A stretch of 64,000 bases of DNA, from positions 1-64,000 of the forward strand of contig MTMY01000004.1 in NCBI GenBank assembly GCA_002010215.1. Reading direction: 5' to 3'. A model generated the notes under the pieces. That model did no database searches. It was given only the letters and a program-made list of their open reading frames with translations, and was not told the origin of the DNA. Below are positions 42,345 through 47,073 of the stretch, piece after piece (within the stretch, counting starts at the first letter, position 1; every line of letters starts with the position of its first letter). This stretch comes from Archaeoglobus sp. JdFR-37. Lineage in GTDB: Archaea > Halobacteriota > Archaeoglobi > Archaeoglobales > Archaeoglobaceae. Both the position numbers and the translations under genes were made by a program.

Positions 42345-43064
42345 TTACTCCAACACAGTTTTTCTGATGCCGTGTGGGTCTATTTTCTCAATGAGTTCAA
42401 TCTCCTCGTCGCTTGGCTCTGGAGTCGGTGGAGCGTCGTTAACTTCAAATCCCGTGTTCTCCTTCACCTCTTCAAAGCTGGACCAGGGATGTATGCTGTC
42501 AACCACAAGCCTTCCAAGATCATCATCGAACCTGAATATGCATAGTGGAGAAAAGACCCTGTAGGGCTTTCCTGCTGCAGTTATCCGCTGAACCTCTTTT
42601 ACGAAGATTCTCGTGTCATGCTTGCCCTGCCAGACTATTGGCCTTCTGGCTGTTGCGTGAAGCAGAGCTCCACCAGCCCCTCCGGGAAGCTGGATTCTTC
42701 TCTCACCTATATAGATGTGGCTGTTGTTAAGGTAGCCCCGCTGGTCTATCTGTGCTCCCGCCAGAAACACAACGTCAAGCTCCCCCCTTGCAGAGATGTC
42801 GAAGAGTTCCGCAAGCTGCAGCTTGGCATCGCAGTACTTGGATATCCATGGATGTACAGTAGACATGGGCAGATGCTTGGGATTGGGGTTATATCCGACT
42901 ATGGAGTACCATATCAGGTCGGGGTTATAGAGTCTTTTCGCCAGAATGATTGCCATGAAGGGCAGAAAGCTGGCAACACCCATGAAAGCGCTCTCAGCAT
43001 CTTTCAGAAGCCTAGCCATTGAGGAAATCATGTAGTTTGCTTTGTCGAGCAGAGTAACAGTCAC
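42345..43064 (-). CDS. Class I CoA-transferase family, beta-like subunit lacking the catalytic Glu
   Basis: The 239-residue protein resembles the GctB/IpdB subunit: GVASFLPFMAIILAKR, AGAQIDQRGYLNNSHIYIG, LPGGAGGALLHATARRPI and KEVQRITAAGKPYRVF. Active transferases have a catalytic glutamate in a stretch like VFEAGGIGP; here the aligned residues are IWYSIVGYNP, with Ser54. Absence of the Glu is also known in IpdAB, which hydrolyses a CoA thioester ring in steroid catabolism. A hydrolase or lyase role is therefore as likely as CoA transfer. It overlaps its partner gene by four bases. Confidence 0.8.
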   Translation of the reverse strand: MTVTLLDKANYMISSMARLLKDAESAFMGVASFLPFMAIILAKRLYNPDLIWYSIVGYNPNPKHLPMSTVHPWISKYCDAKLQLAELFDISARGELDVVFLAGAQIDQRGYLNNSHIYIGERRIQLPGGAGGALLHATARRPIVWQGKHDTRIFVKEVQRITAAGKPYRVFSPLCIFRFDDDLGRLVVDSIHPWSSFEEVKENTGFEVNDAPPTPEPSDEEIELIEKIDPHGIRKTVLE

Positions 43065-43855
43065 GGTTTCACCTCCCAGATGTGCTTTCTCAATCCATCC
43101 TCATCTAAACTCGCATATTTCTCCATCATTTCGAAGTCCATTTCGTAGTAGGGCGGGCATGCTCCCGGATATGCTCCTTTCGGCACCTCTACCACTGCCC
43201 TCACTTTATAGCTGGGAATCCATACCGCATCTATGTCTCTTCTAAGGTCCTCTTTTGGCACAATCATTTCAGTCGTAATTATGATGTTCTCTGCAGCTCT
43301 AGCCATGAGCACATCCTCAAACCAAGGGCCATATATGAGGGCGTTTCCATCCTCGTCAGCTTTCTGGACGTGAATGATGGCAAATTCTGGCTTGATTGCT
43401 GGCACAGTAAGAACCTTTCCACCGCCATACGGGTTTTCAACGAATTTGAAGCCCCTCTCCTTCACAAAATAGCTCTTGCTTATGTCAGCGATGGGCATAA
43501 AAGGTACGCCATAGGCTGCAGCTCTGAGAGCCGCTATTACTGAGTAGCAGGTGTTCTCGGAGTACTTCACCCTTCCCTCCTCAACAGCCCTTCTGAAGTT
43601 CTTAGCAAGTCCAAAAGCTTCGAAAGATACGAAACCTGCAATTATCTCCTTGGCACAGCCCAATCCACATAGCAAGTCAACATCGTATCCACCGGCTGTC
43701 TTCATCACTCTCAGATCCCTCTTCCCCTGTCTTGCAAGCTCTCTTACGAAGGCTGCGGGAATCCTATAGAGCAAATTGCCACTAAGACAAATGAGAGAAC
43801 CGTTCTCGATAAGATCTACGGCTTCTTCAAGAGACATAACAGACATATTTTTCAT
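43061..43855 (-). CDS. Class I CoA-transferase family, alpha-like subunit (GctA/IpdA type)
   Basis: The 264-residue protein pairs with the subunit encoded at 42345-43064. GctA-family stretches include IPAAFVRELARQGKRDLRVM, GCAKEIIAGFVSFEAFGLAK, NTCYSVIAALRAAAYGVPFMP, AIIHVQKADEDGNALIYGP and YPGACPPYYEMD. The alpha subunit binds substrate and CoA, while the catalytic Glu normally comes from the beta subunit. The substrate is unknown. It is a two-gene transcript, divergent from pcn. Confidence 0.82.
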   Translation of the reverse strand: MKNMSVMSLEEAVDLIENGSLICLSGNLLYRIPAAFVRELARQGKRDLRVMKTAGGYDVDLLCGLGCAKEIIAGFVSFEAFGLAKNFRRAVEEGRVKYSENTCYSVIAALRAAAYGVPFMPIADISKSYFVKERGFKFVENPYGGGKVLTVPAIKPEFAIIHVQKADEDGNALIYGPWFEDVLMARAAENIIITTEMIVPKEDLRRDIDAVWIPSYKVRAVVEVPKGAYPGACPPYYEMDFEMMEKYASLDEDGLRKHIWEVKP

Positions 43856-44004: not shown

Positions 44005-44037
44005 TCCCTAAGTTATCTGTTTTCGACGGTGATGGCA

Positions 44038-44775
44038 ATGATCGATGCAATAGTTGAAGGAGATGTCCTAAAAGCAGTTACGAAAGCCATGGTAGCTTTG
44101 GTCAGCGAAGCCCGCTTTCATTTCAAAGATGACACTCTCCACAGCAGAGCTGTTGACCCGGCAAATGTAGCTATGGTAATAGTGAACGTGCCAAGGGACA
44201 GCTTCGAGGTTTACAAGGTAGATGAGGAGAAGATCGTGGGTGTAGATGTTAATAGAATTTACGATATCTCCAAATCCATAAAGAAGGGTGAGCTGGTTGA
44301 GCTCATTCTAGAAAATGAGACCACGCTGAAAGTGAAATTCGGGAGTGTTGAGTACTCTGTTGCATTGATAGACCCATCAGCCATAAGAAAAGAACCCAAG
44401 ATACCAAATCTGGAGCTTCCAGCAAAGATTGTGCTTGACGCAGGCGAATTCAGGAAAGCCATTTCTGCTGCTGACAAGATAAGTGACCACGTGATATTCA
44501 GGAGTGATGAAACAGGCTTTTACATCGAAGCTGAGGGAGATGTTGACCGCATAACATTCCATATGAGCGACGCAGAACTCATAGAATTTAACAGGGCTGA
44601 AGCAAAGAGCATGTTCAGCGTTGAGTACCTGAAGGAGTTCATGAAAGTGGCTGGCACCGGAGACATCCTCACGATTTACCTAGGCAACAATTACCCAGTA
44701 AGGCTGATCTTCGACGTGGCAGACGGCAAGGCGAAGGTGGAGTACATACTGGCTCCCAGAATAGAGGCTGAATGA
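44038..44775 (+). CDS. pcn: DNA polymerase sliding clamp PCNA
   Basis: The 245-residue clamp starts MIDAIVEGDVLKAVTKAMVA and contains LHSRAVDPANVAMV, VDVNRIYDISKSIKKGELV and the C-terminal IYLGNNYPVRLIFDVADGKA, including the inter-domain and PIP-groove regions. It forms the ring around DNA that holds polymerase, ligase and nucleases. ATG 44038 is taken from family N-termini; an ATG at 44032 is possible. The primase large-subunit gene follows 37 bases downstream. Confidence 0.95.
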   Translation: MIDAIVEGDVLKAVTKAMVALVSEARFHFKDDTLHSRAVDPANVAMVIVNVPRDSFEVYKVDEEKIVGVDVNRIYDISKSIKKGELVELILENETTLKVKFGSVEYSVALIDPSAIRKEPKIPNLELPAKIVLDAGEFRKAISAADKISDHVIFRSDETGFYIEAEGDVDRITFHMSDAELIEFNRAEAKSMFSVEYLKEFMKVAGTGDILTIYLGNNYPVRLIFDVADGKAKVEYILAPRIEAE

Positions 44776-44812: not shown

Positions 44813-46027
44813 ATGAAATCCTCTAAACCTCTGAAACCTCTTTTACCCCTTCTACCATATTTATCTCGCTTTCCCTTTCTTAAAGTTTCAGGGAGGCTCT
44901 TTGAGTTAGAATATGGAAGTATCGAGAATTTTCTCACTTCTCAAAAAAGTTTTGATGTTGAGGCAAGGCAACTCGGCTTCAAAATTGTGGAAAGCGTCCT
45001 GAAAGATGAGAAATTCCCAAGTGATGCAATCAAACAGATTGAACTGAGCTTTTTCTGTGAAGTGTGTGAAACGAGGGGGTGCAGGGAGGCATGCAAAAAA
45101 GGAGCCATGAGTTTCAGCTGGAATTACATGCTGTGCGACATGTGCGGAGAGTGCTTTCTCAGATGTGATTACAGCGTTTCAGATGAACTCTATTTCAGAC
45201 TCAAAACCATTGCAAAGCTCAATGTGGCCGCATACCTTTACTCCCGAATTTTGGTTTCGTTGATGGACGAAAGAGCCAGGAGGAGATATGCTGTCAGAGA
45301 AGCCAGAAGATACCGAGAGATTATGGATGAGAGCGATGCAACCCTCATGATTTTTGCCTCAGATTTTGGTCTAAAAGCGAAAATTGAAGAGAACGTTAAC
45401 CTGCACGTATCTGACTACCTCAAAGCGGCTTGCAGAATAAGGAGCAAAGAGTGGAAACTCGTCAACAGAAAGCTGAAAAAGGGATATGTAGAACTGACAA
45501 GAAAGGATTTTCTGAGGATTGTGGAGGAGCTTCTCCGCACCAGACTTGCGGAAAGAGTGATGATAACTCCTACCATAACTCCAACCCCTGAAATCAACCG
45601 GAATCTTGCAGAGCTGATCCCCATCAGCGAAGCCAGATTTGTAGAGATTGAGTTGGGTGAATTCGATGCAGAATGCCTGCCACCTTGCATGAAGAAAATT
45701 CTCTCCGATTTGCAGGCAGGTCTGAATGTTCCACACTCTGCAAGATTTGCTATAACTTCATTCCTTCTGAATATCGGACTAAGTGTGGATGAGGTAATAT
45801 CCCTTTTCAGCTCCGCCCCCGACTTTGATGTGGAAAAGACAAGATATCAGGTGGAGCACATTGCCGGGGCAAGGGGAACGGAGTACACGGCCCCGGCATG
45901 CGATACAATGCTGAGCTACCACAACTGCTATAGAAATGATAGCTGTAGGGGGATAAACCACCCCGTAAACTACTACAGGAGATGCAAGAAGGCAAGTAAG
46001 ACAAGTAAGGGGAATAAAAAGAGATAA
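44813..46027 (+). CDS. priL: DNA primase large subunit with a ferredoxin-like cysteine insertion
   Basis: The 404-residue protein is the regulatory subunit of archaeal primase. The C-terminal Fe-S domain is canonical: PPCMKKILSDLQAGLNVPH (C292), TRYQVEHIAGARG, ACDTM (C363), C372 and C378. In addition, residues 82-118 carry eight cysteines, C82-x2-C-x4-C-x3-C94 and C108-x2-C-x2-C-x3-C118 (CEVCETRGCREACKKGAM, LCDMCGECFLRC). That is the pattern of a 2[4Fe-4S] ferredoxin and is not part of typical PriL. The usual helical core (AAYLYSRILVSLMDERARRR) resumes after it. The insertion interrupts the N-terminal domain. It lies between pcn and pelota. Confidence 0.9.
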   Translation: MKSSKPLKPLLPLLPYLSRFPFLKVSGRLFELEYGSIENFLTSQKSFDVEARQLGFKIVESVLKDEKFPSDAIKQIELSFFCEVCETRGCREACKKGAMSFSWNYMLCDMCGECFLRCDYSVSDELYFRLKTIAKLNVAAYLYSRILVSLMDERARRRYAVREARRYREIMDESDATLMIFASDFGLKAKIEENVNLHVSDYLKAACRIRSKEWKLVNRKLKKGYVELTRKDFLRIVEELLRTRLAERVMITPTITPTPEINRNLAELIPISEARFVEIELGEFDAECLPPCMKKILSDLQAGLNVPHSARFAITSFLLNIGLSVDEVISLFSSAPDFDVEKTRYQVEHIAGARGTEYTAPACDTMLSYHNCYRNDSCRGINHPVNYYRRCKKASKTSKGNKKR

Positions 46028-46041
46028 AGGGAGGAAAGAGT

Positions 46042-47073
46042 ATGAGAGTTCTGGAAGAGAGGCTGAAAGACAATGAAGGCGAGATAAAACTAGTGCCAGA
46101 AAATCTGGAGGATCTCTGGCATTTGAAATATATAATCGAGCCGAACGACATCGTTTTTGCTCTGACAAAGAGGATCAGTGAGAGCAGTGACAAGCTGAGG
46201 AGTGATAAGGAGAAGGTGACTGTGAGACTCGGGATTAGGGTCGAAAAAGTTGAATTTCACCGCTTTGCTAACAGGCTTCGGATTACAGGAGTTATCGTCG
46301 CTGGAGTTGAGGACTCTGGATATCACACCATCAACATTACCGTGGGGAAGGAGCTAAGTATCATAAAAAAGTGGAAGGAGGAGCAGCTTCGCCGCATAAA
46401 GGAGGCTGAGGATGCTGCAAGAAGGGCAGAGATCGTCATAGTAACCATTGAAGAGGGAGAAGCCAGCATTGGTGTCGTCAGACAGTGGGGTGTGGAGGAG
46501 GTAGAAGTTATCAGACAGAGCTATGGCAAGGATAAAGGCAGCTACAGGCGGGAGTTTTTTGGCGATGTTGCATCGGCCATTGCAAGAATGGATTTCAGAT
46601 ATCTAGTTGTTGCAGGCCCCGGGTTTGCAAAAGAGGACTTCATGAGATTTTTGAAGGAGAAGAATCCGGAGATGGCGGAGAAAGCAATAGTGGTCGATAC
46701 TTCCAGCATAGGAACCAGAGGATTCATTGAGGTGCTCAAAAGGGGTGTGCTGAATAGAATAGCGGGGGAGCTGAGAATTGCTGAAGAGGCCAAGTATCTG
46801 GATGTGCTGCTGGAAAGAATTGCAAAGGGAAGTGGTGTGGCGTATGGGCTTGAAGAGGTCAGGGAGGCTGTAAGCTATTCGGCTGTCGAAACCCTCCTAG
46901 TTGCCGACGAGTTTCTGAGAGAGGAAAGGGAGAAATGGGACATAGACTCCCTTATGAGAGAAGTTGAGAGGGGAGGAGGGAAAGTTGTTATCATGAGTAC
47001 AGAATTCGAGCCCGGTAAAAGGTTGATGAGTTTAGGCGGTATAGCAGCACTGCTGAGGTTTGATTATAAGTAG
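46042..47073 (+). CDS. pelA: Pelota/Dom34 mRNA surveillance protein
   Basis: The 343-residue protein resembles eRF1 but lacks the GGQ loop. It has an N-terminal Sm-like domain (residues 1-130, LVPENLEDLWHLKYIIEPND), a central domain with RRAEIVIVTIEEGEASIGVV, and a C-terminal domain with LLVADEFLRE and GGKVVIMSTEFEPGKRLMSL. With aEF1A/ABCE1 it rescues stalled ribosomes. It starts 14 bases after priL and ends convergent with rpiA. Confidence 0.93.
   Translation: MRVLEERLKDNEGEIKLVPENLEDLWHLKYIIEPNDIVFALTKRISESSDKLRSDKEKVTVRLGIRVEKVEFHRFANRLRITGVIVAGVEDSGYHTINITVGKELSIIKKWKEEQLRRIKEAEDAARRAEIVIVTIEEGEASIGVVRQWGVEEVEVIRQSYGKDKGSYRREFFGDVASAIARMDFRYLVVAGPGFAKEDFMRFLKEKNPEMAEKAIVVDTSSIGTRGFIEVLKRGVLNRIAGELRIAEEAKYLDVLLERIAKGSGVAYGLEEVREAVSYSAVETLLVADEFLREEREKWDIDSLMREVERGGGKVVIMSTEFEPGKRLMSLGGIAALLRFDYK

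Follow-up and report, generated by a model that had tools for sequence, protein, structure and literature searches.

The dispute over whether the iron-sulfur clusters of primases are structural or redox-active is ongoing and rests on one cluster, the C-terminal one. The primase locus of Archaeoglobus sp. JdFR-37 raises the question of whether the large subunit of the primase (PriL) carries further clusters in its N-terminal domain and, if so, what their role could be. The window referred to below is the whole stretch of DNA that was analysed, namely the first 64,000 nucleotides of contig MTMY01000004.1 (assembly GCA_002010215.1).

The priL gene and its genomic context

Only one PriL was found in the genome from which the window originates. 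It is encoded by a single intact frame of 404 codons, without stop or frameshift (Table 1), and is recognised by PF04104 over residues 196-375 (119.9 bits against a curated cut-off of 22.4) and by the NCBIfam PriL models (best match 2.6e-93); its best solved relative is the Sulfolobus PriL. The partner subunit PriS is also encoded in the genome (PF01896, C1:112026-112616, E=2.5e-22), where its gene (L170) lies downstream of a dnaG-like gene and upstream of a GINS-like one. The PCNA-PriL gene order is kept in the loci of Archaeoglobales and of other Halobacteriota that were examined, including Methanosarcinales. Two adjoining genes, CoA-transferase subunit-like, are present on the minus strand at positions 42345-43855 of the window. 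Second, divergent PriL-like C-terminal matches were detected in three loci of other genomes, L060 (G030), L061 (G037) and L062 (G024); those of L061 and L062 sit in proteins with small-subunit-like sequence and are possibly derived from mobile elements.

Table 1. Features of the priL locus, in positions of the window.
Feature	Coordinates	Strand	Basis
priL, DNA primase large subunit	44813..46027	+	PF04104 E=1.6e-34; 404 aa
PriL N-terminal helices 1-4 (residues 1-63), with the YPF/FPF motif common to PriLs	44813..45001	+	alignment; AF2 secondary structure
Inserted segment, from helix 4 (ends at residue 63) to helix 5 (starts at residue 124)	45002..45181	+	alignments; AF2
Motif 1, C82-x2-C85-x4-C90-x3-C94	45056..45094	+	sequence
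Motif 2, C108-x2-C111-x2-C114-x3-C118	45134..45166	+	sequence
Remainder of the PriL N-domain, from helix 5 on, with the linker (residues 124-284)	45182..45664	+	alignment; AF2
PriL C-terminal Fe-S domain, C292, C363, C372 and C378 invariant	45665..45982	+	PF04104; alignment
PCNA gene, directly upstream of priL	44029..44775	+	named from sequence
Pelota gene, directly downstream of priL	46042..47073	+	named from sequence

An eight-cysteine insertion in the N-terminal domain

The protein contains cysteines at positions 82, 85, 90, 94, 108, 111, 114 and 118, which form two C-x2-C-x2/4-C-x3-C motifs separated by 13 residues, and at positions 207, 288, 292, 363, 372, 378 and 391. The motifs and their spacing within residues 82-118 are exactly those given in the preliminary description, and the four C-terminal cluster cysteines that it listed are likewise present and invariant in 25 PriLs of Archaeoglobales. 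At the cysteine frequency of the remaining protein (1.9%), the probability of finding at least eight cysteines in 37 residues is about 4e-7, and chance clustering was rejected.

This segment had been described as an in-frame insertion rather than an adjacent gene, and several observations bear this out. Indeed, (i) one open frame covers the whole gene, (ii) ordinary PriL sequence flanks the insertion on both sides according to Pfam, NCBIfam and the alignable N-terminal YPF helix region, and (iii) in the alignment with the Sulfolobus PriL (5of3/1zt2), the matched stretches stop at residue 48-51 and restart at 61-62, so that the Sulfolobus protein has no room for the insertion. The loop at this site is approximately 60 residues long in the window PriL, versus roughly 12-20 in most other PriLs of the phylum, and the inserted segment is about 50 aa longer than the equivalent loop of other PriLs. 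In the AF2 model of the full-length protein (mean pLDDT 90.3; insertion blocks 73-91), the insertion is placed between helices 46-63 and 124-149 and comprises short helices (81-84, 89-92, 114-117) and a strand bridge near 99/103; the isolated insertion was modelled with low confidence (pLDDT 51.9). All significant matches of a fold search, run with the full model as one unit, were PriL/PRIM2 structures, as would be expected.

Relationship to dicluster ferredoxins

The likeness to ferredoxins, at first noticed from cysteine spacing, is also found at the level of profiles. The insertion profile aligned with ferredoxin-type segments from loci of this phylum, mostly of the HycB/CooF type, with a profile-profile score of 48.2, whereas controls in which the cysteines were fixed and the other columns shuffled gave 29.5 +/- 4.2 with a maximum of 42.1 (60 trials); the likeness therefore exceeds cysteine spacing, which was rejected as the sole source of the match. 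In a search of the PDB with the profile of the eight-cysteine insertions, ArrB (1.3e-4), FdnH (5.9e-4), RnfB, PsrB and HycB3 were at or near the top, and 28 of 38 insertions were matched by a Fer4 model at E<=1. The window PriL scores 16.4 bits against Fer4, under the Pfam gathering cut-off of 21.1, and lacks the proline after the last cysteine of each motif. Judged from its sequence, the window insertion is a distant or eroded relative and is not classed as a full member of the dicluster ferredoxins (Fer4_7 and kin).

A second family of the order has a motif 1 that is near textbook (C-x2-C-x4-C-x3-CP ... C-x2-C-x2-C-x3-C): L034 matches Fer4_7 at 6.1e-5 (23.8 bits, gathering cut-off 27) and L033 matches LdpA_Fe-S-bd at 1.2e-5, just below the curated cut-off. 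The proline following motif 1 is present in these two proteins and in a small number of further ones, L073 and L077 among them. In the genome of the window, a HycB/CooF-type ferredoxin subunit (L168:425-835, minus strand, contig C31; E=4.1e-4 to the N-domain profile) is among the ferredoxin-like segments closest to the PriL insertion.

Distribution of the insertion

The insertion is present in all 53 distinct PriLs of Archaeoglobales examined: 45 have eight cysteines in ligand positions, eight have four, and counts of five, six or seven do not occur. Of the 59 genomes of the class, 58 gave a match to an N-domain profile, including all 57 genomes of Archaeoglobales, in which the match covered most or all of the length (it is cut off at a contig end in G026). 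The other order of the class is represented by two genomes, one of which matched through ferredoxin-like fragments only. The PriL of that order encoded in G038 (L046) has a loop that is enlarged at the same place, without cysteines, and could be either an independent insertion or a relic whose ligands were lost.

As the preliminary description had proposed for typical PriLs, no such insertion was found in PriL outside Archaeoglobales among 394 genomes sampled from the phylum, and it is absent from 39 PriLs of Methanosarcinales and related groups. The leftover profile matches in the phylum, judged by the profile region concerned, are ferredoxin-type segments or the bare PriL N-terminus. This survey was confined to one phylum, other archaeal phyla being represented by solved structures only.

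Archaeoglobales are strict anaerobes, and the named loci with the insertion belong to Archaeoglobus, Ferroglobus, Geoglobus and JdFR-42. The PriL of A. fulgidus (G033, which we take to be strain DSM 4304) has eight insertion cysteines and that of A. profundus has four. Among the cultured species of the set are A. profundus (G022; PMC3035285), A. sulfaticallidus (G024; PMC3703591) and Ferroglobus placidus (G011; PMC3236036). Absence of the cysteines from close relatives, or poor conservation of the segment, had been named as grounds for abandoning the proposal; alignment of the relatives' PriLs showed neither, the insertion being conserved across the order. A chance occurrence, a sequencing artefact or a fusion with a neighbouring gene has a negligible probability and is already refuted: nothing was found in its favour, and the 53 distinct sequences that share the insertion come from many separate assemblies, some of them finished genomes of cultured species. 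An adjacent gene or a frameshift was rejected on the single open frame seen across many genomes.

The four-cysteine clade and selection on the insertion

The eight PriLs with four cysteines, that of A. profundus included, group in a single clade (support 98/98) when the tree is computed with the insertion left out. Their surviving cysteines are best read as C1, C2, C3 and C8, with C4-C7 missing; in the genus of A. profundus the third cysteine stands at x5 spacing, which makes its homology less certain. In ferredoxins, cluster I is bound by the three cysteines that open motif 1 together with the one that closes motif 2. The survivors consequently correspond to the residues that hold a single cluster in dicluster ferredoxins, while a pair of sequential sites or a cross-braced zinc fold is disfavoured, since other cysteines would be expected to survive. 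Of the five possible contiguous four-cysteine deletions, one leaves the ferredoxin ligand set; the loss pattern is modest evidence because it reflects one event and a single contiguous deletion could remove C4-C7.

The eight ferredoxin cysteines of the RNA polymerase subunit Rpo3 are retained in nearly every case examined in the same genomes, G008 (a g9 genome) having C-x2-C-x2-C-x3-CV instead of CP. As Rpo3 keeps its eight cysteines in the four-cysteine clade, cysteine loss there is specific to PriL, and a general loss of Fe-S domains in this clade was rejected.

Motif 2 (C-x2-C-x2-C-x3-C) is kept by every eight-cysteine member, with one extra cysteine in some. Several genera have a tighter motif 1, with x3 and x1-x2 spacings, and the CP proline is gone in most cases. 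Across the order, the two motifs are separated by linkers of 24 down to 7 residues, and linkers of 7 residues, found in some genera, are tight for the canonical dicluster fold. Besides the cysteines, no column is even 90% conserved in the eight-cysteine set. The insertion is under purifying selection: pooled dN/dS values over 13 close pairs were 0.060 for the insertion, 0.102 for the rest of the N-domain and 0.068 for the C-terminal part, values that demonstrate constraint but not a fine ranking, because the insertion contributes 390 codon pairs and synonymous sites are saturated in some pairs. The conservation pattern suggests that cofactor binding is kept, and not a conserved surface.

Proposed clusters, origin and role

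The motifs and the profile relationship suggest that the insertion of the Archaeoglobales PriL very probably binds clusters. The primase of this order probably possesses two extra [4Fe-4S] clusters, and that of the A. profundus clade one, in addition to the C-terminal one. A HycB/FdnH/DmsB-type dicluster ferredoxin segment would have been inserted in the loop between helices 4 and 5 of PriL at the base of Archaeoglobales. The predicted ligands are C82, C85, C90 and C118 for cluster I, and C94, C108, C111 and C114 for cluster II; cluster II would have been lost and cluster I kept in the A. profundus clade. Loading of the clusters may fold and lock the insertion subdomain, which could then stabilise PriL itself or the complex that it assembles with PriS or further replisome components, so that assembly of the primase would become dependent on the Fe-S status of the cell. 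Such a structural or assembly role, with cluster-dependent folding, is given an even chance by analogy with the ferredoxin-like domain (FLD) of Rpo3. It is favoured because the Rpo3 FLD shares with the PriL insertion a non-catalytic host subunit, an inserted ferredoxin unit, strictly anaerobic hosts and one cluster that is kept more widely. The insertion may also have an effect on PriS; no obvious matching insertion restricted to Archaeoglobales was seen in the PriS sequences compared.

Alternatively, the N-terminal clusters could act as a redox switch or electron relay, exchanging electrons with a cellular donor, with the C-terminal PriL cluster or with DNA, and thereby tuning priming. FdnH, PsrB and HycB, the protein types matched, are electron carriers, the eight ligands are retained in most genera, and the C-terminal cluster of human primase has been suggested to work as a redox switch (as cited in PMC5700102). 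Nevertheless, this is unlikely: the linker has been reduced from 24 to as few as 7 residues, the cysteines alone are strictly conserved, and a relay through two clusters would be interrupted in the A. profundus clade, where a whole cluster is gone. In addition, the Sulfolobus enzyme can still prime when its C-terminal Fe-S domain is missing (PMC5700102), which makes redox control of priming less likely a priori. The hint of DNA-linked redox signalling in the preliminary description found no support: the insertion has eroded and has lost one cluster in a clade, as would be conceivable for a structural element. The more specific proposal, a replicative primase of three [4Fe-4S] clusters whose primer synthesis would be coupled, through the dicluster ferredoxin acquired by PriL, to the redox state or electron pool of its anaerobic archaeal host, appears quite improbable.

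Two further explanations also have a low probability. A ferredoxin-derived segment that now binds one or two zinc ions, in a purely structural role, would suit the compressed motif 1, the frequent loss of the CP proline, the weak matches of a few zinc-finger models to single members and the four-cysteine versions, which could hold one zinc; this is very unlikely given that motif 2 has the usual [4Fe-4S] spacing in all eight-cysteine members, that the top profile and PDB matches are [4Fe-4S] proteins, that a near-canonical ferredoxin motif is kept in the second family and that the host lineage is strictly anaerobic. A docking module whose surface recruits a replisome partner (PCNA, GINS, RPA or PolB/PolD), the clusters merely holding its shape, is suggested by the loop location between helices 4 and 5 and by the low dN/dS, and is similarly improbable, as no position other than the cysteines reaches 90% conservation across the order and no conserved docking surface is evident.

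Significance and comparison with known systems

An entire archaeal order would have equipped the primase subunit that bears the C-terminal cluster with a second Fe-S module at another site, and A. profundus, which is culturable, appears to have dropped exactly one of the two added clusters. The PriS/L of A. fulgidus has been reported to make DNA primers in vitro (as cited in a passage of PMC4538821), so that cluster number, stability, assembly and priming are directly comparable. No earlier description of the PriL insertion was found in the open-access literature, so it may be mentioned elsewhere, and searches of primase reviews and of a 2025 survey of Asgard primases brought up no comparable insertion in PriL.

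The canonical archaeal PriL N-domains, from Sulfolobus (1zt2/5of3) and Pyrococcus (2dla/9f26), are the same helical domain; the insertion is absent at the loop in the Sulfolobus alignment, and the Pyrococcus alignment did not span this loop. The C-terminal [4Fe-4S] domain of PriL/PRIM2 belongs to the same protein but differs from the insertion in domain, fold and ligand pattern, and is general in PriL, whereas the insertion is known only from Archaeoglobales. The best profile and PDB matches of the insertion are the Fe-S subunits of the HycB/FdnH/DmsB/PsrB type (Fer4_7 and kin), with which it shares the C-x2-C-x4-C-x3-C ... C-x2-C-x2-C-x3-C arrangement. These are free electron-transfer subunits with several clusters, whereas the insertion is one minimal dicluster unit built into a primase, in most cases lacking CP, and its linker is shortened.

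The FLD of Rpo3 (RpoD), its domain 3, is like the PriL insertion an eight-cysteine, two-[4Fe-4S] ferredoxin-type domain in a non-catalytic subunit of an information-processing enzyme. The Rpo3 of the window genome (L172:1159-1959, minus strand, contig C3) has a near-canonical two-cluster ferredoxin-like domain, and the same eight-cysteine pattern was seen in the 21 genomes compared. In the Rpo3 FLD, individual lineages have lost one of the two clusters, and cluster 1 is the one most often retained (PMC5300874), a pattern that PriL appears to share. The two ferredoxin units evolve independently, as Rpo3 keeps eight cysteines where PriL has four, and their motifs 1 differ, C-x2-C-x2-C-x3-C in Rpo3 and C-x2-C-x4-C-x3-C in PriL, where x4 (or x3) separates C2 and C3. 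The function of the Rpo3 FLD has been tested experimentally: Methanosarcina acetivorans remains viable when either cluster is removed, with reduced assembly and activity of RNA polymerase, deletion of the FLD likewise weakens assembly, and cluster 1, also the more widely conserved, matters more (PMC5300874). If the proposed reading is true, PriL would be the second case, after Rpo3, of a ferredoxin domain within a core information-processing enzyme of anaerobic archaea, and two such cases would suggest that replication and transcription have been linked to the supply of Fe-S clusters more than once in this manner.
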